Assembly: GCA_013377075.1 (NCBI GenBank)
Contig: JACABD010000007.1
Location: 53,893-94,143 of the forward strand
Direction: 5' to 3'
Source: Geobacteraceae bacterium
Lineage (GTDB): Bacteria; Desulfobacterota; Desulfuromonadia; Geobacterales; DSM-12255
Length of the DNA: 40,251 nt
Each line of letters starts with the position of its first letter. The stretch's first letter is position 1. Shown piece after piece: positions 2,854 through 26,382 of this stretch. The notes under the pieces are model-generated. The model was not told the DNA's origin. It was given only the letters and a program-made list of their open reading frames with translations, and searched no databases. The translations under genes were made by a program, and so were the position numbers.

Positions 2854-4281
2854 TCACACAAAATATCCGGCAGTATCTACCCCGAGAGCTGTTGCATCTA
2901 TCACACCGTAGACCATCGACTCATCTGTAGTATCCATAATCGCGCCATCAATAGCCTCTCCGGCAGCCGATACGACCAGCTTCACCAACGGGATACGCAA
3001 CCCCTCTGCGCTTGATCTGTTTTCTGCCACAACCCCGACCTCACCCGAATTGAGGAGCAGCAGCGTCCCGACAGGATAGAGGCCGACAACGGAGATAAAA
3101 AGTTTGAGAAGAGCCGGATGATAGTTTTTGCCAGACTTGGAAATCATGTATCTTATGACTCTGTCAGCAGGCTTGGCATCCCTTCTGTAGACCCTCGATG
3201 AGGTAAGTGAATCAAAGTCGTCAGCAATGTTGATTATCCTGGAAAAGAGTCCGGCATTCTGATAAGGGAGCCTTGGATAACCGGAAAAGTCGTACTGCTG
3301 GTGATGTTCGAAAGTTCCGGCTATCATCCTGGCGCTTAGTGCGTCAAACTGCTTCAGCTCCAAAACAAGGCTGACCCCGTAAAGAGGATGTTTCTGAATC
3401 TCCTGCCACTCTTCGCTGGTGAAATCGGTATCCTTGCCGATAATATCCCCGGAAATCGAGACTTTACCGATATCATGGCAGAGGGCTGTCAGACCGATAT
3501 CGCAGCACCTCCCCTTGGAAAGTCCCGCCCTTAGCCCGACGACCATGGAGAGAATACAGACATTGACCGGGTGTTTGGCTGAGTAGTTGTCAAGGCATTT
3601 CAGCGTTGTCAGGGCAACAAGATCGGCAGGATCGGTGCGCATCTGATCGACCATCACCTGAACAACCCGTTTTGCCTTGGCAAGCCTGAGCGACTTCCCC
3701 TTTGCAGCTGAATCCATAATCTCATCAACCGCACTTATGGCCTGAAAATATATCCTTCTGGCCCTTGAGCGGCTGTCCATTTTTGCTTCATCATTGACAA
3801 CCGTCCGCTCGGTAACGGTCATGATCTCAAGCTCGACACGGCTGATGCCGCCGGCATTCAACAGACTTTGAAGCTCTGTAAATGCCTGTTCGCAGCCTTT
3901 TTTCTGAATCCTTTGTAGATTATAGAGAAAACCGGTGATATCGGCGGCCTGCACCCCCTGGGAAAAACAGATGCCACCCAGGAAACAGCGCTTCATCTCT
4001 TCCATGGTAAACCTGAACGCCTCGAATCCTGAAGCATCCGGTTTGAGGCGCAGATCCCCGAGGTACAGGTAGTCGTCCTTCATTCTCAGCGACGCCTCTG
4101 CATTCATCCGGTGCATCTCACGGATCAAGGCAAGGAGCTGTTCCACCGGGCCGGACAGGGCAGCGTGCCCCTCCTGATAATTCTGTACCGTCTTGAAGAG
4201 AACAAACAGCCTGGCAACTAGCCCCTTTCCCAGTTGCAACACAGCCGTTTCAAGCTGATCCTGGTTGTGGTTGGGATTCAC
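2854..4281 (-). CDS. HD-GYP-like phosphohydrolase with unknown N-terminal domain
   Basis: The protein has 475 residues. The C-terminal half is an HD-GYP domain, a family that hydrolyses cyclic di-GMP or related dinucleotides: KHPVNVCILS (237-246), LCHDIGK with H269/D270, KHPLYG (297-302) and HHQQYDFSGYP (326-336). The canonical motif is HHExxDGSGYP; here E is Q328 and G is F332, so activity may be altered. Residues 15-124 resemble residues 25-127 of the upstream HEAT protein. No membrane segment or signal peptide is seen, so it is probably cytoplasmic. The start is a GTG at 4281, one base after the TAA stop of the HEAT gene, indicating translational coupling. It is the last gene of the caspase/OmpA/HEAT/HD-GYP block. 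Domain call is sure; catalytic competence is not. Confidence 0.87.
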   Translation of the reverse strand: MNPNHNQDQLETAVLQLGKGLVARLFVLFKTVQNYQEGHAALSGPVEQLLALIREMHRMNAEASLRMKDDYLYLGDLRLKPDASGFEAFRFTMEEMKRCFLGGICFSQGVQAADITGFLYNLQRIQKKGCEQAFTELQSLLNAGGISRVELEIMTVTERTVVNDEAKMDSRSRARRIYFQAISAVDEIMDSAAKGKSLRLAKAKRVVQVMVDQMRTDPADLVALTTLKCLDNYSAKHPVNVCILSMVVGLRAGLSKGRCCDIGLTALCHDIGKVSISGDIIGKDTDFTSEEWQEIQKHPLYGVSLVLELKQFDALSARMIAGTFEHHQQYDFSGYPRLPYQNAGLFSRIINIADDFDSLTSSRVYRRDAKPADRVIRYMISKSGKNYHPALLKLFISVVGLYPVGTLLLLNSGEVGVVAENRSSAEGLRIPLVKLVVSAAGEAIDGAIMDTTDESMVYGVIDATALGVDTAGYFV

Positions 4282-4282
4282 G

Positions 4283-5998
4283 TTAGTTCTCCTGGCCTGC
4301 TAAAGCATCGGCTGGTTTCGGTTTCCCGATCCTGTCGATGGCACTGATAAGAACATCGTGATGCTCCCTGGTCTTTGACTTGAGCGCCTCACTGAGCATC
4401 TTCAGAGGCTCATCACCCGGTATCTTCGGCAAGGCGGCAGCGGCACAGATGACCGCATCCCTTTCCCTCGCCCGCTGGAAATGAAATTTCTTTGTCAGCA
4501 TTGTCTTGAAAACCGGCAGGGTCTTTTCTGCCCCGATATCGGCTATCGCCTCGTAAACCGCCTTTTTAACCGCAATATCCATATCTTCGAACACTTCTGA
4601 AGCGACAAAATCAAGGAGCGGATTCAGAGCTATATGAAGCCTTGCTCTCCCCATGAGCTGAACGGCCATGATCCTCATTGATGGGGTCTCGTCCCTTAGA
4701 AATCGCAGAATATAAGGTTTTGCCTTTGGATCCGGCACTGACAGCAGGTATCTGAGAACCTCTTTCCTTACCCTGATCTCCCGGTGTGTGATAAGAGCTA
4801 CAACCTGATCCAGAAGGTCCGTACTCCTGATCTGGGAGAGAAGAAAGACCATGTTCCTGACAACAAACCACCTTGAATCCTTGAGAAAGGGGAGAAGTAT
4901 CTGGGGCCGTTCCCTTGCAAAATCAGCAGTCGTATCAAGAAGAACCTTGCGCATCTTCATATTCTCAACCTGACCAAGAAGCTGGCAAAGTGCTGCCGGG
5001 GTACTCCTGCCGATCAGTATCGAGAGCGACTTAAGCTCATCCGGAGAAATAACACTTCCTGTATCAATGGCACTGGAAAACCCTTTAAGAACATCATCGC
5101 TCCACAATCTGCCAAGGGCCAGCAAAAGTTCCTGTTTTCTGGTTTCGGAAGGTTCGGTTGCAGTCCCCCTTCTCTGGAGAAAGGCAAACATTTTCAGAGC
5201 CACCCTGCTCTCTCCTGAGACAAAAAGATTTCCGGCCAGCTTCAGATAGATATTGAGGAACTTGGTAAAGAGTTCATCTTCGGCAACTCCGGAAACTATT
5301 GCAGAGAGGATTCTGGCAGTGGCTTCCAAAGGCTGGAACTGCTCCTCAGCCTCCACAAGACCCTTCAGAGCGGCAGCATCATCTTCAGAAAGGGTAATGA
5401 GGTGATCCGGGATATCGGCAAGCCCGACCGCATTGGTAGCAAGCTCCCTAAGCTGTGAGGAGGTGAGATTTGCCAGTGGAGATGAACCGGGGAGATGTTC
5501 ATCGATCTGCCGGTCTATTTCGTGGTAATCCTCTTCAAGAATGTAGGCAAAGTGCGGAAGCCCCACGTCCCAGAAGCGGGTGACGATGTCGTCATCAAGG
5601 GAGGAGGAGCTGTTCATATTGACAATGTCGAGGAACTCTTTCAGCTCCCAATCACACAACCCCTTTTTGAAAATAACCGACCTGATCCCGTCAGAGTACA
5701 TCCTGAAAGCAATGCTATCCTTTGGATCGGAGTTTTCGTAAACCTGGTGTCCCTTGTATTTCAGTTCAAACCTGTCCACATCGAGCCGGTACTGACCGTA
5801 CTGATCAAGCATGGCAGAAACCTTTTCGGAGAGATCCTGGAAAAACTTCTCAAGAACAGAATTATTGGCCTGATACATCCTGAGACCCTTGGTGGTTTTC
5901 ACCATTGCAAGCATGACATCGGTTGCAAGGGAAACTTCAGACCTGCTTACCTCGTCAGGCGGTGGGGCTTCGTCTGTCATATCAATGTTATCGGCCAT
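4283..5998 (-). CDS. HEAT-repeat scaffold-like protein sharing an N-terminal domain with the HD-GYP protein
   Basis: This 571-residue soluble protein has no signal peptide. From about residue 340 to 560 it consists of helical pairs typical of HEAT/PBS-lyase repeats (for example PFLKDSRWFVVRNMVFLLSQI, VVALITHREIRVRKEVLRYL, ILRFLRDETPSMRIMAVQLM), which serve as protein-binding scaffolds. Residues 25-127 form a separate domain, starting KTTKGLRMYQANN and ending WELKEFLDIV. It can be aligned by eye with residues 15-124 of the downstream HD-GYP protein (KTVQNYQEGH ... DITGFLYNL). The start ATG 5998 has GGAGCG just upstream. It follows the OmpA lipoprotein gene by 38 bases and precedes the HD-GYP gene by one base. 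Role unknown; a scaffold presenting the HD-GYP partner is inference. Confidence 0.82.
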   Translation of the reverse strand: MADNIDMTDEAPPPDEVSRSEVSLATDVMLAMVKTTKGLRMYQANNSVLEKFFQDLSEKVSAMLDQYGQYRLDVDRFELKYKGHQVYENSDPKDSIAFRMYSDGIRSVIFKKGLCDWELKEFLDIVNMNSSSSLDDDIVTRFWDVGLPHFAYILEEDYHEIDRQIDEHLPGSSPLANLTSSQLRELATNAVGLADIPDHLITLSEDDAAALKGLVEAEEQFQPLEATARILSAIVSGVAEDELFTKFLNIYLKLAGNLFVSGESRVALKMFAFLQRRGTATEPSETRKQELLLALGRLWSDDVLKGFSSAIDTGSVISPDELKSLSILIGRSTPAALCQLLGQVENMKMRKVLLDTTADFARERPQILLPFLKDSRWFVVRNMVFLLSQIRSTDLLDQVVALITHREIRVRKEVLRYLLSVPDPKAKPYILRFLRDETPSMRIMAVQLMGRARLHIALNPLLDFVASEVFEDMDIAVKKAVYEAIADIGAEKTLPVFKTMLTKKFHFQRARERDAVICAAAALPKIPGDEPLKMLSEALKSKTREHHDVLISAIDRIGKPKPADALAGQEN

Positions 5999-6036
5999 GT
6001 CGCTCCATTTTTAAGCAAATAACGGGCTCAATCACT

Positions 6037-7212
6037 CTACTTGACAACATCATGCACAGTTGTGCTGAATATCTGGCAGATTCTGCGTTGCGGATTGGTG
6101 GCCTGTGCCGTCATCTGAACCCCTGGAGGGGGCTCTTCACCCTTGCCAACCACCTTGCCCGCGTGGATCACAACCTTACTACCGTACGAGGCAAGTTTCT
6201 GGGTCAGGGCCCGATTAAGACAGTCACTGACACTTTTTGCCCGCAGCTCGGAGAGGCGCTGATTCAGGAGTGCTCTTTTTTTCAGATTGCCGCCATCGCT
6301 TAAGAATCCGGATGAATCGGTATAACCATAAACGTCCACCTGCAGGATCAGCGGTTTGTCCGGGAAAAGAATCAGACTGCTGTCGATATTGGCCACAATT
6401 TTCTCGGCAAATTTTTCCAGCGCAGCTTTACCGTCCTGAGCAAGGTCGTACTTCCCCATGGCAAAGGAGATATCGGACTGAAGCTTTTCCTGCTGGCTGC
6501 TTTTTATATCCTCTTCGTAAACCTTCAGATCGCTTGTGATGCTTGCCGCCTTGACAAGGGACATCTGCTCCAGCCCCTTCTCGTCGTTCTGGACATCGTT
6601 GGCGAACTGAAGGATTTCATCCAGTCTTGGCAATATCTTCTTCAAAGGAGTTGCGGGGTTTTCCTCCTGTTTCCTTACAATCTCCTCTTTCATCACCTTG
6701 ACCGAGCTGGTAATCCCCTGAAGAATGACCCGCTTCGAAGAGGTGATGCTGTCCTTTGCAGCAGATATGGCTCGCTGATACTGCTGCTCGGCAAGCTGCT
6801 TTTCAGCCTCATCAAACTTCTGAACCGAACTTGCAATATCAGGAGAGCTACTCCCGGAAGAGGCCGATCTCTTCACAGTATCCTGATATTCTCTTGCCTC
6901 ATCGATCAACCTCTTGGCATCAAGATACAAAAGCACCCGTTTGGAAGCATCAATGCTGTCCCGCGCCGATTCAACTGCACGGGGGAACAACAGGAATTTC
7001 ATGGACTTCTCTGCTTCACTGATTTTTGATTTAATCAAAGGGACATCCGGAGTGGCATTTTCAGTTATGCCTGTCCGGCTTACATCTTCCTGATACTGCA
7101 TGGCCTCATTAATAGCCCGTTTTGCATCAAAGATAGTCGGACCGCAACCGGCAGATAATAGTAGTGTCACAAACAGCAATAGCGCTTTTACAATTCTTAC
7201 CGACAATCTCAT
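6037..7212 (-). CDS. OmpA-family lipoprotein with duplicated helical repeat
   Basis: The 391-residue protein begins with a lipoprotein signal (LLLFVTLLLSAGC, C23 the likely lipidated residue). Two copies of a helical unit follow, residues 28-94 (DAKRAINEAMQYQ ... ASKRVLL) and 98-164 (DAKRLIDEAREYQ ... SSKRVIL). A coiled region leads to an OmpA-like peptidoglycan-binding domain in the last 140 residues (DVYGYTDSSG, RLSELRAKSVSDCL, GKGEEPP, NPQRRICQIF). The usual arrangement is lipid anchoring in the outer membrane with the OmpA domain bound to peptidoglycan. AAGGAG lies eight bases before ATG 7212. The gene starts 19 bases after the caspase-like gene, so both are likely on one message. Similar helical repeats are often seen in envelope lipoproteins of this group; precise function unknown. 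Confidence 0.85.
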   Translation of the reverse strand: MRLSVRIVKALLLFVTLLLSAGCGPTIFDAKRAINEAMQYQEDVSRTGITENATPDVPLIKSKISEAEKSMKFLLFPRAVESARDSIDASKRVLLYLDAKRLIDEAREYQDTVKRSASSGSSSPDIASSVQKFDEAEKQLAEQQYQRAISAAKDSITSSKRVILQGITSSVKVMKEEIVRKQEENPATPLKKILPRLDEILQFANDVQNDEKGLEQMSLVKAASITSDLKVYEEDIKSSQQEKLQSDISFAMGKYDLAQDGKAALEKFAEKIVANIDSSLILFPDKPLILQVDVYGYTDSSGFLSDGGNLKKRALLNQRLSELRAKSVSDCLNRALTQKLASYGSKVVIHAGKVVGKGEEPPPGVQMTAQATNPQRRICQIFSTTVHDVVK

Positions 7213-7231
7213 AACTCACTCCTTACTGCGG

Positions 7232-8341
7232 TTATCTGTTCAATTCACAGAACGACTCTTCATACTTTTGCCTTGTTTTGGCAGTATTGCTCTGCATCTG
7301 CCGAAGAGACTCATCTTGATTTAACAGATACTGTTCCTGTAGCAGCGCTTCAATACCCTTGAAATCACAGACTATTTTTTTAAGTACCAAAGCAGCTTCG
7401 GAGCCGCCTGACCGCCCCTTTTTCTTAAGAGTATCATAACTGACCAGATCCTTCTTTGACGAGGAGAGCAGCTCCTCTAGTGTCCTGCTGTCAGCAAGGC
7501 ATTCAATCGAGCATCTATCCATCTTTTTGACCGTTGTGAAATAAAAATCCCCCCGCAAAGAGGTTGACTCCCAGGGAATCTGCCTGTTGCCGGTCTCTGT
7601 AATGACATCATTACGAACATGTTTGAATACCTGTTCAATGGTCAGGCCGGGTATTGTCAGCGCCTTTAACAAATGCTTTGTATAGACGCCGTTTTTATCC
7701 TTGCCATCAGCCGCCACTGACTCCGGCGCAGTTGCATAGGCGACAATGGTTCCGGTAGGCGCGTCCATCCGGGCAAGGCCGCCCCGTGAAGAGCGGAAGC
7801 TTCTGGCAAACGGGTTGTCACGGCAGGCGTCGAGAATAACGATATTTACCGGATTCCCGGCATCTTCCATCTTCCCCAGAACCCGGGCGATATCGATGGA
7901 TTCGTGCTCGATATCAGATTCACTCTCAATGCGGGCGCCGATCGGAATCAGGTAGTTCCTGCCGTTTACCTGCATGCCATGCCCGGCATAGTAAAAAAGA
8001 CCTACGCCACCGTTGCGCAGCTTCTGGTAAAAGGCTCTTATCGCCTCATCCATACTGCGGCGGGAAGCATCCTCTTCATAGATTACCTGAAAACCGAGTT
8101 TTTTCAATGCCATGGAAATGTCCCGGGCATCATTTACCGGGTTTTTCAGAGGCGAGTTAGCGTAATTGCTATTGCCGATAACAAGGGCAAGGCGGCTTTC
8201 ATCTGCAGTGCTTTTGATAGTTATTGATCTGTCATTCGCTGATGCCGTTGACACCAGCAGAAAGAAGATAGCATATGCAAAAGCAGACAGTGGGGCCTGT
8301 AGCAGGTATTTGGAATGAAAACATTTACAGAGAATAATCAT
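7232..8341 (-). CDS. Secreted caspase-like (peptidase C14) protein
   Basis: This 369-residue protein has a signal peptide (hydrophobic AFAYAIFFLLVSTASA, probable cleavage before NDR). A caspase/metacaspase p20-like domain follows: RLALVIGNSNY, LFYYAGHGMQ with catalytic His121, and VNIVILDACRDNPF with catalytic Cys173, then the family segment TGTIVAYATAPESVAADG. The last 110 residues are helical, polar and unassigned. I chose ATG 8341 rather than the upstream in-frame codon at 8395. It overlaps the permease TGA by one base (TGATG) and puts the signal peptide near the N terminus. Prokaryotic members cleave after basic residues or act in stress and signalling. Export suggests action in the periplasm, next to the OmpA lipoprotein encoded 19 bases downstream. 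Substrate unknown. Confidence 0.87.
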   Translation of the reverse strand: MIILCKCFHSKYLLQAPLSAFAYAIFFLLVSTASANDRSITIKSTADESRLALVIGNSNYANSPLKNPVNDARDISMALKKLGFQVIYEEDASRRSMDEAIRAFYQKLRNGGVGLFYYAGHGMQVNGRNYLIPIGARIESESDIEHESIDIARVLGKMEDAGNPVNIVILDACRDNPFARSFRSSRGGLARMDAPTGTIVAYATAPESVAADGKDKNGVYTKHLLKALTIPGLTIEQVFKHVRNDVITETGNRQIPWESTSLRGDFYFTTVKKMDRCSIECLADSRTLEELLSSSKKDLVSYDTLKKKGRSGGSEAALVLKKIVCDFKGIEALLQEQYLLNQDESLRQMQSNTAKTRQKYEESFCELNR

Positions 8342-9642
8342 CACCCCTTCGGCAGGAAGATAAAGAGTGTTACCGAAAGGGCGGCAAGCACCCACATCCC
8401 CGGCTTCACCTCGGAAGCCCTTCCTGTGAGAGCCTTCAGCACCACATAGGTAATCATCCCGGCGGTCATCCCCACGCCGATATTATAAGTAAAGATCATC
8501 AGCACAATGGTCAGAAAGGCCGGAATCAACTCAGTCATGTCGTCGAAATTGAGCTGGGAAATGGGGCGGATCATGAATGAACCGATGACGATAAGCGCTA
8601 TGCCGTAGGCGTGTGGCGGCACAATAGTGAAGAGCGGCGCAAAAAAGAGCGACAATCCAAACAGTGCAGCAACCACAAGGGCGGTAAAGCCTGTCCTCCC
8701 ACCCTCTTCTATTCCGGCGGCTGATTCGATGTAAGCACCGGTAGTGGTAGTACCGAGGAGGGGCGCGACCATTGTGGCAACGGCATCGGCCAGCATCGGC
8801 TTCTCGATTTCTGGAAGGTTACCGTCCTTGTCGAGAAGGTCAGCCCGCATGGACAAACCGATCAGCGTGCCGATGGTATCGAGAAAGGCCATGATGAAGA
8901 TAACCATGACCACCGGAAAGAATTTGATATCCATCGCCCCGGCCAGGTCAAGCTTTAAAAGAATCGGTGAGATGGACGGCGGCATGCTGACAATCTCTTT
9001 CGGAAGCGGGGTAATGCCGAGAACAATGGAGAGGATAGTAATGGTGACAATGCCGATGAGCATTGCGCCGTGAACCCTTCGAGAAAGAAGCACCACAACC
9101 AGCATCACCCCTGCTGCCGCAAGCAGCGCCGATGGCTGGGAAATGTTCCCCAGTTTCACCGGAGCACCCTGCACACCGAGCGCCACAATCCCGGTCTCAT
9201 TGAGACCGATAAAGGTGATAAAAAGGCCGATACCGACAGCAAAGCTCCCTTTGAGAGACATCGGAATCGACTCGGCCAGCCAGCTCCTGATCTTGAAGAT
9301 GGTGAGGATAGTAAAGAGGCAACCGGCAATGAAGACCGCTCCCAGAGCCACCTGCCAGGTGTACCCCATCACCTTGACAACGACAAAGGCGATGAAGGCA
9401 TTTTCGCTCATGTAGGGGGCAATGGCAAATGGGCGCTTTGCCCATAATGCCATAATCACCGTACCGAAAAGGGCGGCAAGTATAGTGGCCGTAACCTGGG
9501 GAGCCCGGGGGATGCCCGCATTTTCAAGGATCGCCGGATTAACGATAATGATGTAGGCCATGGTCAGAAAGGTTGTGATCCCGGCAATGGTCTCCTGCTT
9601 GTAGGAGGTGTTGTGCCTGTCGAATTCAAAGAATTTTTTCAT
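8341..9642 (-). CDS. NCS2-family purine permease (AzgA/PbuG type)
   Basis: A 433-residue polytopic inner-membrane protein with the AzgA-type N terminus (FFEFDRHNTSYKQETIAGITTFLTMAYIIIVNP, quoted in part as YKQETIAGITTFLTMAY). It also has the family segments AIAPYMSENAFIAF, FLDTIGTLIGLS and LLGTTTTGAYIESAAGIEEGGRTG. Family members import adenine, guanine or hypoxanthine with protons. The gene begins four bases before the hpt stop, so salvage uptake and phosphoribosylation are translationally coupled. Its own stop overlaps the start of the caspase-like gene. Note the position usually holding N in APYMGLNAFF-type motifs is a SENAF sequence here. Which purine is preferred cannot be told. Confidence 0.9.
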   Translation of the reverse strand: MKKFFEFDRHNTSYKQETIAGITTFLTMAYIIIVNPAILENAGIPRAPQVTATILAALFGTVIMALWAKRPFAIAPYMSENAFIAFVVVKVMGYTWQVALGAVFIAGCLFTILTIFKIRSWLAESIPMSLKGSFAVGIGLFITFIGLNETGIVALGVQGAPVKLGNISQPSALLAAAGVMLVVVLLSRRVHGAMLIGIVTITILSIVLGITPLPKEIVSMPPSISPILLKLDLAGAMDIKFFPVVMVIFIMAFLDTIGTLIGLSMRADLLDKDGNLPEIEKPMLADAVATMVAPLLGTTTTGAYIESAAGIEEGGRTGFTALVVAALFGLSLFFAPLFTIVPPHAYGIALIVIGSFMIRPISQLNFDDMTELIPAFLTIVLMIFTYNIGVGMTAGMITYVVLKALTGRASEVKPGMWVLAALSVTLFIFLPKG

Positions 9643-21567: not shown

Positions 21568-22884
21568 ATGAATATGACCTTAGCCAAGCCAATTTTATTA
21601 CTCTCTATCGTCTTGCTTCCCTCCGCCCTAAGTGCAGCCGAAATCTCCATTGATTCAAACACCATTTTCCGCATTGAAAAACGTGACATGATAGGTTCAG
21701 GAAAAGACACTATCATGCCTGCGACCGAATTTATCGGTTTTGACGCCAACAGGCTTGCTGATACCAACCTGTCATTCCATTTTTATGGCTGGGGGCGAAT
21801 GGATCTGAAAGACAAGAGTTATAATGATGACAATGCTGACGCCGGATTCACATACGGATATCTCCGCTACCGCTTTAATTCAGCAAATGCAGATGTTAGA
21901 GCCGGTCGTTTTTTTGTTCACGAAGGCATTGTCAATGAACAGGTCGACGGTGTCAGCGCAAGGACAGACCTACCATTAGGCTTCGGCATCTCGGCGTTCG
22001 GAGGCGCTCCGGTACATGGAGAGAATCTTTATCGGGAGAATAGTGACGGCAAAGGAGATAGCGTCGTCGGTGGAAGACTCAACTACCGCTTCAAAGGGAT
22101 TCTCGACCTTGGAGTTTCAACCGTATATGAAGGCAAGACACCTGATCTGCTCTACCATACCAACGGAGAGCACCGTCTGGTTGGCGGCGACATCTGGCTC
22201 ACACCGATCTCCTGGTTCGAACTGATCGGCCACACGAGCTATAACACAAAAACATCAACAGTTGCAGAACACTCCTACCTGGCAAACATCCGCCCCCTGA
22301 AGCGCCTTACACTAAGTGCTCAATACAACGAATCTGACGATCAGAGTCTCTTTTACTCATGGGCCGCATTTTCCGGTGCAGCACTGCCATCCGGTAGCAA
22401 AACAAGAACTGCTGCAACTACAGTTTCCTATGAATTCAGCAAGAACGTGGAAGCATCGACAGATTTCAAGCATTACAAGCGGGACAAGGGTGAAGCTGAA
22501 CGTTATGGCGGTAATCTCAAATTCAAGTTCATGGAAAACAGTTTACGCACAGGCATCGGTTATCACTACCTGCGTGCCGGAGAAGGGTTTGCCATAGATA
22601 GCAACCCTACCGCTTCTTATCAGGAAGCACGAACTTATGCCATGTACGATTCGAAAACGTACTTCACTGCAATAGACCTGATTGGGCAGTTCTTCAAGAA
22701 CAAGGTCTACAACAAGAGCAACGCTCTTGAGGGCAGAGTCTCCATCGGCTACCACATCACACCTACACTGGCAGTTTCGGGTGACATAAGCTGCGGCAAA
22801 AACCCTGAATTCACTTCGGAGACAAAAGGTCTGATCAGACTTACATATAATCCTGTCTTTGACGGCAAAGGAGATAAAAAATGA
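21568..22884 (+). CDS. Outer-membrane beta-barrel of a porin-cytochrome conduit
   Basis: 438 residues with a signal peptide (PILLLSIVLLPSALSA, cleavage before AEIS). The rest alternates hydrophobic and polar residues with many short aromatic-rich strands (LSFHFYGWGRMDL, FTYGYLRYRF, VVGGRLNYRFKGIL, SLFYSWAAFSG, LRTGIGYHYLRAG, ALEGRVSIGYHI), typical of a barrel of about 18-22 strands. No conserved enzyme motif is present. Two multiheme lipoprotein genes follow with overlap or an 8-bp gap, the arrangement known for Geobacter porin-cytochrome conduits such as the ext and omb-oma-omc clusters. It probably forms the pore through which cytochrome hemes span the outer membrane. AAAGGGGA precedes ATG 21568. 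Confidence 0.83.
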   Translation: MNMTLAKPILLLSIVLLPSALSAAEISIDSNTIFRIEKRDMIGSGKDTIMPATEFIGFDANRLADTNLSFHFYGWGRMDLKDKSYNDDNADAGFTYGYLRYRFNSANADVRAGRFFVHEGIVNEQVDGVSARTDLPLGFGISAFGGAPVHGENLYRENSDGKGDSVVGGRLNYRFKGILDLGVSTVYEGKTPDLLYHTNGEHRLVGGDIWLTPISWFELIGHTSYNTKTSTVAEHSYLANIRPLKRLTLSAQYNESDDQSLFYSWAAFSGAALPSGSKTRTAATTVSYEFSKNVEASTDFKHYKRDKGEAERYGGNLKFKFMENSLRTGIGYHYLRAGEGFAIDSNPTASYQEARTYAMYDSKTYFTAIDLIGQFFKNKVYNKSNALEGRVSIGYHITPTLAVSGDISCGKNPEFTSETKGLIRLTYNPVFDGKGDKK

Positions 22885-23357
22885 ACCTGTTACGACTGAG
22901 TACCCTTGTATTTGCCATCATCGCCATGATCGTGACTTTAGCTGCATGCGCCCAGATGAACAGCATGAAAAGTCTCCCTTCTGCGCACCCTGAATCACTG
23001 GCAATCGGCCAGCAGGCAGACTGCTCCGAGTGTCATGACGATCAGCAGAAAGGAACTCTTAAGGCAATCCCCTACTTCAGCCATTCAAAATCTTTTGTAG
23101 ATAACCATCGTTTTTATGCTGCCAATGATAACCGCCTCTGCATAGTCTGCCACAAAGAATCTTTCTGTGCCGATTGCCATACAAACAAGGTCGAGATGAA
23201 ACCTTCGACCAAATACGGTTATCGTCCGGACAGAGAGATGCCCCATCTTGGCGACTTCATGGTGCTTCACAGGATTGAAGGGAAGCTGGATCCGGCGAGC
23301 TGCTACCGCTGTCATGGTAGAGCCAACAACGAGCGCTGCAGCAGTTGCCATAGATAG
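22881..23357 (+). CDS. Five-heme lipoprotein c-type cytochrome
   Basis: 158 residues. The lipoprotein signal ends LAAC (C23). Five CXXCH motifs follow: C48SECH, C87IVCH, C96ADCH, C141YRCH, C153SSCH. Extra histidines (H68, H76, H122, H130) are available as distal ligands. Heme spacing is uneven: a close pair at 87/96 and another at 141/153. The ATG overlaps the barrel stop (ATGA), so barrel and cytochrome are made in step. Probably the periplasm-side cytochrome that feeds electrons into the barrel, by analogy with the small cytochromes of other conduits. Confidence 0.92.
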   Translation: MNLLRLSTLVFAIIAMIVTLAACAQMNSMKSLPSAHPESLAIGQQADCSECHDDQQKGTLKAIPYFSHSKSFVDNHRFYAANDNRLCIVCHKESFCADCHTNKVEMKPSTKYGYRPDREMPHLGDFMVLHRIEGKLDPASCYRCHGRANNERCSSCHR

Positions 23358-23365
23358 GAGGAATT

Positions 23366-26248
23366 ATGCGATTTTCAGCTTTATTGCTTATTCTGGGATT
23401 GATGTTTGGCTGCAGCAAAGCCAATGAAAATGCTCCGATACTGAACCCGGTTACCGGCAAACACCCTGCAGGCTGGGCTGTTGCCAATACCGGTGGACTC
23501 CATCCGGCAGCTTATCTGAAAGGGCCAAGTTCCTGCCTGGAATGCCACGGCAAGAACATGGATGGCGGCATCAGCAGTGTCAGCTGCTTCAGTGCCTCGC
23601 GAAGCGGAATTACCTGCCACCCGGGGGGGCCTTCAGGACACCCGCAGGGGTGGTCGGCACCTAACTCCCATGGCGCGGCAGCAAAGGCTGCCTATGCAGG
23701 CAGATTCGGATTTCTTCACTGTTCCAACTGCCATGGAGTTGACTACAATGGTGGTGTGGTCAATAAGTCATGCTTCAGCAATTCGGGCTGTCATGTAAAA
23801 TCGCCCCACCCTTCTCCGTGGCAACCTAGTTTAAGCATTTTTACCCACACAAATACTGATGCCAGCAACGCGGCAGCCTGCATAGTCTGCCATGCAAGCG
23901 GTAACAACTTCCCTCACCTGGGTAACTCTACCCCGCCAGCAACAACACCTCCAGCCGGGACTCCAGCGGGATGTTTCAACAATACTCTCTGCCACGGCGT
24001 AATGGGGCATAATGTTGGCTGGTCAGCTCCTAATGTGCATGGGGCTTCTGCTAAAGGTATCGCCAGCGGTGACACCGGTTTTAAATCCTGCACCCAGTGT
24101 CATGGTACAAATTATGGCACCATTCTTTATACTGCCGACATTCCACCCATACCTAAGACTTGCCTTGATCCTGCTGCCTGCCACTCCGTTGCAGCACCAC
24201 ATCCACCAAAACCATGGAGAACCACTGGCGGGGTAACCCATATCAACACCGACACCAGCAACGCCGACCAGTGCGCTATTTGCCACACTGGTGGGCAGAA
24301 TTCGGGATTAAAACCAATCACTGGAGCTCAGGCCGGACTTACAGGATGTTACAACAATACTCTCTGTCACGGCCAGATTGGCCACCCTGCAGGATGGAGT
24401 GCCCCTACAGCACATGGCGCTACAGCTAAAAAAGCCCCTTCTCAAACAACCGGCTTCTCCTCGTGCCAGCTCTGTCACGGTGCAGCATTTGTCAACGGAA
24501 GCGCTACTACCTGCTTCAAGGGGATCGGCTGCCACGGTTTCGGCATAGCATCACCACATCCGCAAAAGCCGTGGTTCTCCCGTACAGGCGGGGTCACCCA
24601 TTCAGATACTGACCCGGGGAATGTCGACGTATGTGCCATCTGTCATACAGCCGGTGCCAACTCGACAATCAAACCACCTTTCCCTCAAACCAACACCCTG
24701 GCTGGCTGCTATAACAACACCCTCTGCCACTTCCATCAGATCCCATTTGCTCCGCCACCATTAGGTACAATGCCGATATCACTACATAGCGGAGAGGCAA
24801 AAAAAGACCTGAGCATCTGCCAGGCATGCCATGGAAAACCTGGAACCACAGCTTTTGACGGAGTCCTCCTTGCAGATGGTACACGCACAATTGCCTGCTC
24901 ATCCTGTCACACATATGCCAAAGCTCACCCAACAGACTGGCAGGGATCTGGCACATACTCACACAGGGATGCGGGCAACAAATCTGTTGCCTGCGCAATC
25001 TGCCACGGATTAAGCTTGGGAGCGGCATCTCCTCTCCCGGCTGCGCCCAGCTGTTTCAGCGCTTCCTTTACCAACCCACTTGGACAGGCCAGAACCTGTC
25101 ATGCCAACGGACCTGGAAACGCTGCCCATACTGTCCCTTATGTCAATCACAATTCGGCTGCCAGCGCAAACATAACCTACTGCCTCGGTTGTCACAGTGT
25201 CACAGGTTCAGGCTCTAATCCCAATGCTCCTGCCTGCACGAGCTGTCACATTTCAAGTCCACAGGCAAGTCCGAGCAATTGCGTCTCATGTCACGCAATG
25301 CCTCCTAGTGGCCCCACATATCCCAATATCAACAAATCGCACACGGCACATAGTTCCCTTAACGTCACGGCCATTTGTGCAGAGTGCCATTCCGGACTCG
25401 GAGCGGGCACATATAATCATTACTCAAGATCGCAACTTCGCACGACATCAGTCCAACCAAACCCTGTAAAATTCGGCACATTGGCAAAAACCGGCGGAGT
25501 TGCCCCGACATTCACCCTCTCAACCGGTGTATGCGCTAATACATACTGCCATGGCGCAACGCTGTTAGGCGGCAGCAATCCGAATCCTGTATGGGGGGAC
25601 GCAACCTATCTGACTGGATGCGGAGTCTGCCATGGTTTCCCACCGTCAACTCCTGAGCACACAGGCTCGAATGTCACGTCCGCTACTCCTTGCATGGGTT
25701 GCCACCCGCATGTCAACGCAACAAATACCGGATTTACCGACCCTACCAAACATATCAACGGAGTGATTGATGCGAGTGGAACCGGGCATGCATTCCCATA
25801 CTCCGGAGCCCTTCACCAGGCAAACGGCGCTACCTTGGCCAACTGTAGCGGCTGTCATGACACAACAACTACCGGCGGTACTTACCCTGTTGCAGCAGGA
25901 GTCCGTCCGCTCTGCTCGGGCTGTCACCTTAACATGACCGGTTTTACAGGCTGTTGGGACTGCCACGGAGCAAGTGCAACTAACGCAAGACCAAATGGCT
26001 CTTCTTTTCCGAATCGGGTTGGCTATCACAATGTGGGCGACCATGCAGCATCCAAATTCACATGTACAACCTGTCACCCCATAACTTCAGGAAGCATTAA
26101 TCATGGGTGGTCTAACAGGATAAAATCAACCAGAGCACAGGTTAACGCTAGCCTGAGATTTGTTCCGGCCAATGGCAACATTCAAAGCAGCTGTAATCCA
26201 TCAGCTGGAGGGATGACCGGCTGTCACGGTTCTGCAAACGGCTGGTAA
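23366..26248 (+). CDS. Large multiheme lipoprotein cytochrome c (20 CXXCH plus 10 CXnCH)
   Basis: 960 residues. The signal peptide ends LMFGC (C16), a probable lipoprotein site. Twenty canonical CXXCH motifs start at C57, 119, 172, 242, 303, 367, 423, 485, 511, 543, 606, 624, 639, 671, 752, 776, 827, 850, 863 and 900. Ten further CXnCH sites exist: CX5CH at 136, 203, 266, 328, 383 and 448, CX4CH at 723, CX9CH at 74 and 943, CX14CH at 563. Residues 95-217, 218-342 and 343-466 are tandem units starting GWSAP, each with CXXCH, CX5CH, CXXCH, CX5CH in that order. Residues 723-756 match the Geobacter CX4CH...CXXCH domain pattern (TIGR01904 as I recall it). AGGAGG lies five bases before ATG 23366 and overlaps the previous gene's end. 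Likely the outward-facing electron outlet of the conduit. Confidence 0.93.
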   Translation: MRFSALLLILGLMFGCSKANENAPILNPVTGKHPAGWAVANTGGLHPAAYLKGPSSCLECHGKNMDGGISSVSCFSASRSGITCHPGGPSGHPQGWSAPNSHGAAAKAAYAGRFGFLHCSNCHGVDYNGGVVNKSCFSNSGCHVKSPHPSPWQPSLSIFTHTNTDASNAAACIVCHASGNNFPHLGNSTPPATTPPAGTPAGCFNNTLCHGVMGHNVGWSAPNVHGASAKGIASGDTGFKSCTQCHGTNYGTILYTADIPPIPKTCLDPAACHSVAAPHPPKPWRTTGGVTHINTDTSNADQCAICHTGGQNSGLKPITGAQAGLTGCYNNTLCHGQIGHPAGWSAPTAHGATAKKAPSQTTGFSSCQLCHGAAFVNGSATTCFKGIGCHGFGIASPHPQKPWFSRTGGVTHSDTDPGNVDVCAICHTAGANSTIKPPFPQTNTLAGCYNNTLCHFHQIPFAPPPLGTMPISLHSGEAKKDLSICQACHGKPGTTAFDGVLLADGTRTIACSSCHTYAKAHPTDWQGSGTYSHRDAGNKSVACAICHGLSLGAASPLPAAPSCFSASFTNPLGQARTCHANGPGNAAHTVPYVNHNSAASANITYCLGCHSVTGSGSNPNAPACTSCHISSPQASPSNCVSCHAMPPSGPTYPNINKSHTAHSSLNVTAICAECHSGLGAGTYNHYSRSQLRTTSVQPNPVKFGTLAKTGGVAPTFTLSTGVCANTYCHGATLLGGSNPNPVWGDATYLTGCGVCHGFPPSTPEHTGSNVTSATPCMGCHPHVNATNTGFTDPTKHINGVIDASGTGHAFPYSGALHQANGATLANCSGCHDTTTTGGTYPVAAGVRPLCSGCHLNMTGFTGCWDCHGASATNARPNGSSFPNRVGYHNVGDHAASKFTCTTCHPITSGSINHGWSNRIKSTRAQVNASLRFVPANGNIQSSCNPSAGGMTGCHGSANGW

Positions 26249-26313: not shown

Positions 26314-26346
26314 AATACATGAAGGTCGCAAAATAATGAAGAAACA

Positions 26347-26382
26347 AAAAGAGGGGGACGCCATTTGCGCCCCCCTCTTTTA
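26347..26382. terminator. Bidirectional rho-independent terminator
   Basis: AAAAGAGGGGG (26347-26357) pairs with CCCCCTCTTTT (26371-26381). A-tract and T-tract flank both sides, so it can end the cytochrome transcript on the plus strand and the zinc-ribbon transcript on the minus strand. Confidence 0.9.

Follow-up and report, generated by a model that had tools for sequence, protein, structure and literature searches.

The last gene of a three-gene cluster in a Geobacteraceae bacterium encodes a 960-residue cytochrome in which six motifs with five residues between the cysteines (CX5CH) stand among 20 canonical CXXCH motifs. These CX5CH motifs are very probably covalent heme c sites, equivalent to CXXCH with three further residues between the cysteines, in a lipid-anchored outer-membrane protein that carries about 30 bis-His hemes and is probably the outward-facing component of a porin-cytochrome conduit. 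Heme attachment at CX5CH, the surface position and the role in electron export are what we infer from the motifs, their conservation and the gene context within the window, the whole analysed stretch of 40,251 nucleotides (Table 1).

Motif content and unit architecture

Sixty of the 61 cysteines in the cytochrome pair into exactly 30 C-Xn-C-H sites, and the sole cysteine outside these motifs is Cys16, the lipobox residue (LMFGC16) of a lipoprotein signal. The sites comprise 20 CX2CH, six CX5CH, one CX4CH, two CX9CH (residues 74-85 and 943-954) and one CX14CH (563-579), which bears out the total of 30 given in the initial annotation. Spacing is non-canonical at 10 of the 30 sites, mostly with n = 5; the six CX5CH motifs are CFSNSGCH (136-143), CFNNTLCH (203-210), CLDPAACH (266-273), CYNNTLCH (328-335), CFKGIGCH (383-390) and CYNNTLCH (448-455). 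The 20 CXXCH motifs and the lipoprotein signal identify the product as a multiheme c-type cytochrome, in the sense of an exported protein with several CXXCH motifs, and it matches Cytochrome_C7 and GSu_C4xC__C2xCH in Pfam and TIGR01904 in NCBIfam. The GSu_C4xC__C2xCH model (PF09698 / TIGR01904) is found once in the C-terminal part, covering residues 708-767 only (TIGR01904, 49.3 bits against a curated cut-off of 27), and gives the CX4CH site; the tetraheme CX2/CX5 units lie outside it. Across 57 related proteins, 2004 cysteines belong to CXnCH pairs, and 13 cysteines located after the first motif are unpaired.

The CX5CH motifs cannot be attributed to chance. When residues outside the 20 CXXCH were permuted in 20,000 shuffled sequences, CX5CH arose 0.05 times per sequence on average and never more than twice, against six observed. 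Extra CH dipeptides numbered 1.9 on average in the same shuffles, with a maximum of nine, and 10 are present in the protein.

Residues 95-600 consist of repeated tetraheme units. Three tandem units, each beginning with GWSAP (residues 95, 218 and 343), are mutually 43-50% identical (E values from 6e-34 to 4e-42). Both their residue limits (95-217, 218-342 and 343-466) and the order of motifs within each (CX2CH, CX5CH, CX2CH, CX5CH) are as the initial annotation had described, except that its nucleotide start of 23651 falls one codon late, the actual start being 23648. The fourth unit shares 25-34% identity with units 1-3 and keeps an unchanged register. Placing the first CX9CH (74-85) at unit position 2 was considered and dropped; its flanks, GPSGHPxGW, suit position 4 better.

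The number of conserved histidines matches the number of motifs. When 22 diverse units are aligned, the cysteines and histidines shared by all of them are those of the four CXnCH motifs together with His 16, 62 and 75; His 129 is present in more than 90% of units. Four extra histidines for four CXnCH motifs would fit four bis-His hemes per unit. In residues 1-610 of the long family members, 20 invariant extra histidines accompany 19 CXnCH sites, only 11 of which are CX2CH; if these 11 sites alone carried heme, about nine invariant histidines would be left without a ligand role. Candidate distal ligands for bis-His ligation are thus available at a ratio of 20 for 19 sites over this region and of four for four in each unit.

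Table 1. Features of the cytochrome locus, in window coordinates; residue numbers refer to the 960-residue cytochrome
Feature	Position	Strand	Basis or remark
Secreted 438-aa protein, probable outer-membrane beta-barrel; conserved partner	21568..22884	+	Barrel assigned solely from gene context and appearance of the sequence
158-aa lipoprotein with five CXXCH; conserved partner	22881..23357	+	4-base overlap with barrel gene
960-aa outer-membrane lipoprotein multiheme cytochrome, 30 CXnCH sites	23366..26248	+	ORF, Pfam, NCBIfam
N-terminal half unit: CX2CH (57-61), CX9CH (74-85, 23585-23620)	23462..23647	+	CX9CH retained in 14/14 homologues
Tetraheme unit 1 (95-217): CX5CH 23771-23794 and 23972-23995; candidate distal His 102, 148, 161, 215	23648..24016	+	
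Tetraheme unit 2 (218-342): CX5CH 24161-24184 and 24347-24370; candidate distal His 225, 279, 292, 340	24017..24391	+	
Tetraheme unit 3 (343-466): CX5CH 24512-24535 and 24707-24730; candidate distal His 350, 398, 412, 457	24392..24763	+	
Fourth, diverged unit (467-600): position 2 CX2CH (CSSCH), position 4 CX14CH (25052-25102)	24764..25165	+	
C-terminal part: CX2CH sites, one CX4CH (25532-25552, TIGR01904 domain), final CX9CH (26192-26227)	25166..26245	+	
Intrinsic-terminator-like hairpin and T run, -22.7 kcal/mol	26346..26381	+	About 100 bases past cytochrome gene

Conservation and exchange of cysteine spacings

A genome scan recovered 11 loci, including those of Oryzomonas japonica and Geomonas silvestris, and a match is present in 48 of 141 genomes of the order. 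The alignment comprised the query and 14 long, non-redundant members, including three incomplete ones. Both cysteines and the histidine of all six CX5CH motifs, 18 residues in total, are retained in all 15 long sequences. The initial annotation had named loss of these residues in homologues as a refuting result, and such loss occurs in none of the 15. The spacing itself is nearly as constant: among the 14 homologues n = 5 is found in 83 of 84 cases and n = 3 in the remaining one. The loop residues, in contrast, vary between the fixed cysteines and histidines of these sequences.

Other non-canonical sites show a range of behaviour in the long members. The N-terminal CX9CH (74-85) is kept in 14 of 14 homologues. 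The site at residue 827 is CX2 in the query, CX6 in most long members and CX4 in one, and the CX2 site at residue 511 is CX4 in one long member. The last CX9 appears as CX7 or CX3 in single long members, and the final histidine is lost in two (L026 and L028). At the equivalent of residue 776, the contracted CSCH (CX1CH) replaces CXXCH in four members (L026, L028, L042 and L044). A contracted motif of this kind is likewise reported for one anammox cytochrome, and a CKCH motif for a protein associated with hydrazine synthase (PMC7096707). A homologous unit from a distant genome (L077; G290:C71:74293-74616) contains an in-frame TGA.

The tetraheme unit also occurs in shorter proteins of the cytochrome family and in proteins belonging to other families within the phylum, and 91 units were collected in all. 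Position 2 has n = 2 in 36 units and n = 5 in 48, and the remaining seven show n = 3, 4, 6 or 9; both cysteines, the histidine, the flanks (for example KSC..CH..APHP.KPW) and the downstream PH..PW stay constant throughout. The canonical CXXCH therefore occurs at the very position that holds CX5CH in the 960-residue protein. Since CXXCH and CX5CH exchange amid unchanged surroundings, position 2 appears to be a single heme site whose loop is free to vary in length, and its CX5CH is most simply read, from these alignments, as a canonical CXXCH heme site with a loop between the cysteines.

Position 4 follows a different pattern, with n = 5 in 70 units, n = 14 in 14, and n = 9, 10 or 16 in a few. 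The 91 units hold no convincing CX2CH counterpart of the position-4 motif C[FY]NNTLCH, which swaps only with longer or unusual spacings; n = 4 and n = 2 at this position in three rows (L045_5, L046_4 and L049_4) were set aside, as these rows look half a unit out of register. A unit tree built without the loop residues, in which many forks are unresolved, implies at least 12 spacing changes at position 2 and at least seven at position 4. The position-4 loop is strongly conserved within the protein (203-210, 328-335 and 448-455) and in relatives, C[FY]NNTLCH being the commonest form of CX5CH, whereas the position-2 loop is variable. This conservation suggests that the position-4 loop has a role of its own.

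Alternative readings and the number of hemes

The conservation of the CX5CH motifs could have causes other than heme binding at full occupancy. One is that heme is bound only at the 20 CXXCH sites (plus the CX4CH), the CX5CH cysteines forming structural disulfides followed by an incidental histidine. Curated heme motif models lack CX5CH, and the good conservation of the C[FY]NNTLCH loop is what one might expect of a structural element. A disulfide, however, does not account for a histidine as invariant as the cysteines that precede it, for the CX2CH that many relatives have at the same position, or for conserved extra histidines too numerous for 20 hemes, and we regard this explanation as improbable. 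Slightly more doubtful is attachment through one thioether only, or partial occupancy, which would place the working number of hemes between 20 and 30. Experiments with System I show that attachment can indeed be faulty when the heme-Cys spacing is altered (PMC3601427), but single-thioether attachment does not require both cysteines, and both are invariant in 15 of 15 sequences. The lowest probability of all falls to a mixed cofactor chain, in which CX5CH holds another metal (zinc or iron-sulfur) or a low-occupancy heme. Two cysteines and a histidine, joined by a conserved extra histidine, could in principle bind zinc; against this, the protein is a secreted lipoprotein encoded in a heme-protein operon, and CX2CH and CX5CH interchange at one position while their partners remain unchanged.

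Covalent heme at CX5CH thus remains the preferred reading. The initial annotation had proposed up to 30 hemes rather than 20, and about 30 is indeed the best count, because the 18 key residues are kept in 15 of 15 sequences, relatives carry CX2CH at position 2, and the histidines suffice for four rather than two hemes per unit; the presence of heme itself is deduced from these features. AlphaFold2 predictions are of very low confidence, with a mean pLDDT of 31 for the full protein with 12 homologues and 45 for one unit with 22 diverse units, and searches of PDB sequences with the protein and its profile gave no solved-structure relative at E < 0.001. The genome encodes ResB and CcsA-like proteins of the System II heme-attachment pathway. 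That this machinery accepts CX5CH is our assumption, given that the CX15CH of MccA, which carries heme, requires a dedicated heme lyase in Wolinella (PMC7096707). MccA and the CKCH protein are unrelated to the 960-residue cytochrome; they demonstrate heme-Cys spacings longer or shorter than two.

The gene trio and its relation to known conduits

The cytochrome gene is the last of a trio and starts eight bases after the gene of the pentaheme lipoprotein. The 4-base overlap and the close spacing indicate that the three genes are probably co-transcribed. The putative barrel matches no Pfam family. The order of barrel, pentaheme lipoprotein and large lipoprotein is kept in homologous loci, including those with a short last gene of 14-24 sites, and the operon is present in Oryzomonas japonica and Geomonas silvestris (L008 and L013). 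The number of CXnCH sites in the last gene reaches 37 among the long members. A barrel kept together with a small and a large cytochrome characterizes porin-cytochrome conduits, and such a conduit is the best reading of the layout. Across the loci L016-L044 and 21568-26248 of the window, the last cytochrome varies from about 14 to 37 sites in an accordion-like change of unit number, and its partners are 50-70% identical. Elsewhere in the window, on the minus strand (2854-8395), a caspase-domain (Peptidase_C14) protein is encoded near one HEAT-repeat protein, one HD-domain protein and one protein that matches no Pfam family, all on the same strand.

Such a conduit would consist of the 438-residue barrel, the 158-residue pentaheme lipoprotein and the 960-residue cytochrome built from tetraheme units. 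Periplasmic cytochromes would pass electrons to the barrel and its pentaheme base, from which they would move through the 30-heme surface protein to metal oxides, other cells or shuttles. The arrangement resembles the Ext and Omc conduits of G. sulfurreducens (ExtABCD, ExtEFG and OmbB-OmaB-OmcB), where a barrel and lipoprotein cytochromes share one cluster. There the barrel ExtB is followed by ExtC, a pentaheme lipoprotein, and by ExtD, a lipoprotein with multiple hemes (PMC6148476), which is also how the present trio is arranged; the likeness drawn here is one of order. ExtD has 12 heme sites, compared with 30 in the 960-residue cytochrome and about 14 to 37 in the operons of relatives.

An expanded motif with bound heme is known from OmcZ of Geobacter sulfurreducens, where cryo-EM revealed heme at one CX14CH, with its 14-residue loop, among eight hemes (PMC9473688). 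OmcZ is likewise a Geobacter multiheme c-type cytochrome with expanded CXnCH, and there the bound heme has been seen. It differs from the 960-residue cytochrome in that it forms filaments and has a single expanded site of eight, as opposed to 10 non-canonical sites of 30, mostly with n = 5. Open-licence PMC text yielded no account of CX5CH sites in their own right. The earlier statement that no CX5CH heme site is established is fair for characterized proteins in the open-licence papers searched, but spacings of two to five had already served as a heme-counting rule in work from 2025, so n = 5 had been presumed before (PMC12545173). As a systematic and conserved spacing, CX5CH appears to be previously undescribed in the papers searched. 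Expanded heme sites are known; the use of a spacing of five six times in one protein, fixed across a family, appears to be new.

A more far-reaching interpretation, which we offer tentatively and hold to be less probable than its opposite, is that CX5CH has been selected as a heme-site class in its own right and is not a mere tolerated insertion. The conserved C[FY]NNTLCH loop at position 4 might then serve a separate function, for instance in packing units against one another, in tuning heme potential or in docking an acceptor or partner, and the last gene of the operon might act as an accordion of tetraheme units on which the length of a surface wire depends.

If CX5CH binds heme, counts restricted to CXXCH miss a third of the hemes in the 960-residue cytochrome, and where heme chains predicted for other large cytochromes show gaps, the search pattern itself may be the cause. 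Within the family a single heme site is found naturally with spacings of 2, 3, 4, 5, 6 and 9, which would allow a direct test of the spacings that the heme-attachment machinery accepts and of how the loop affects the heme.
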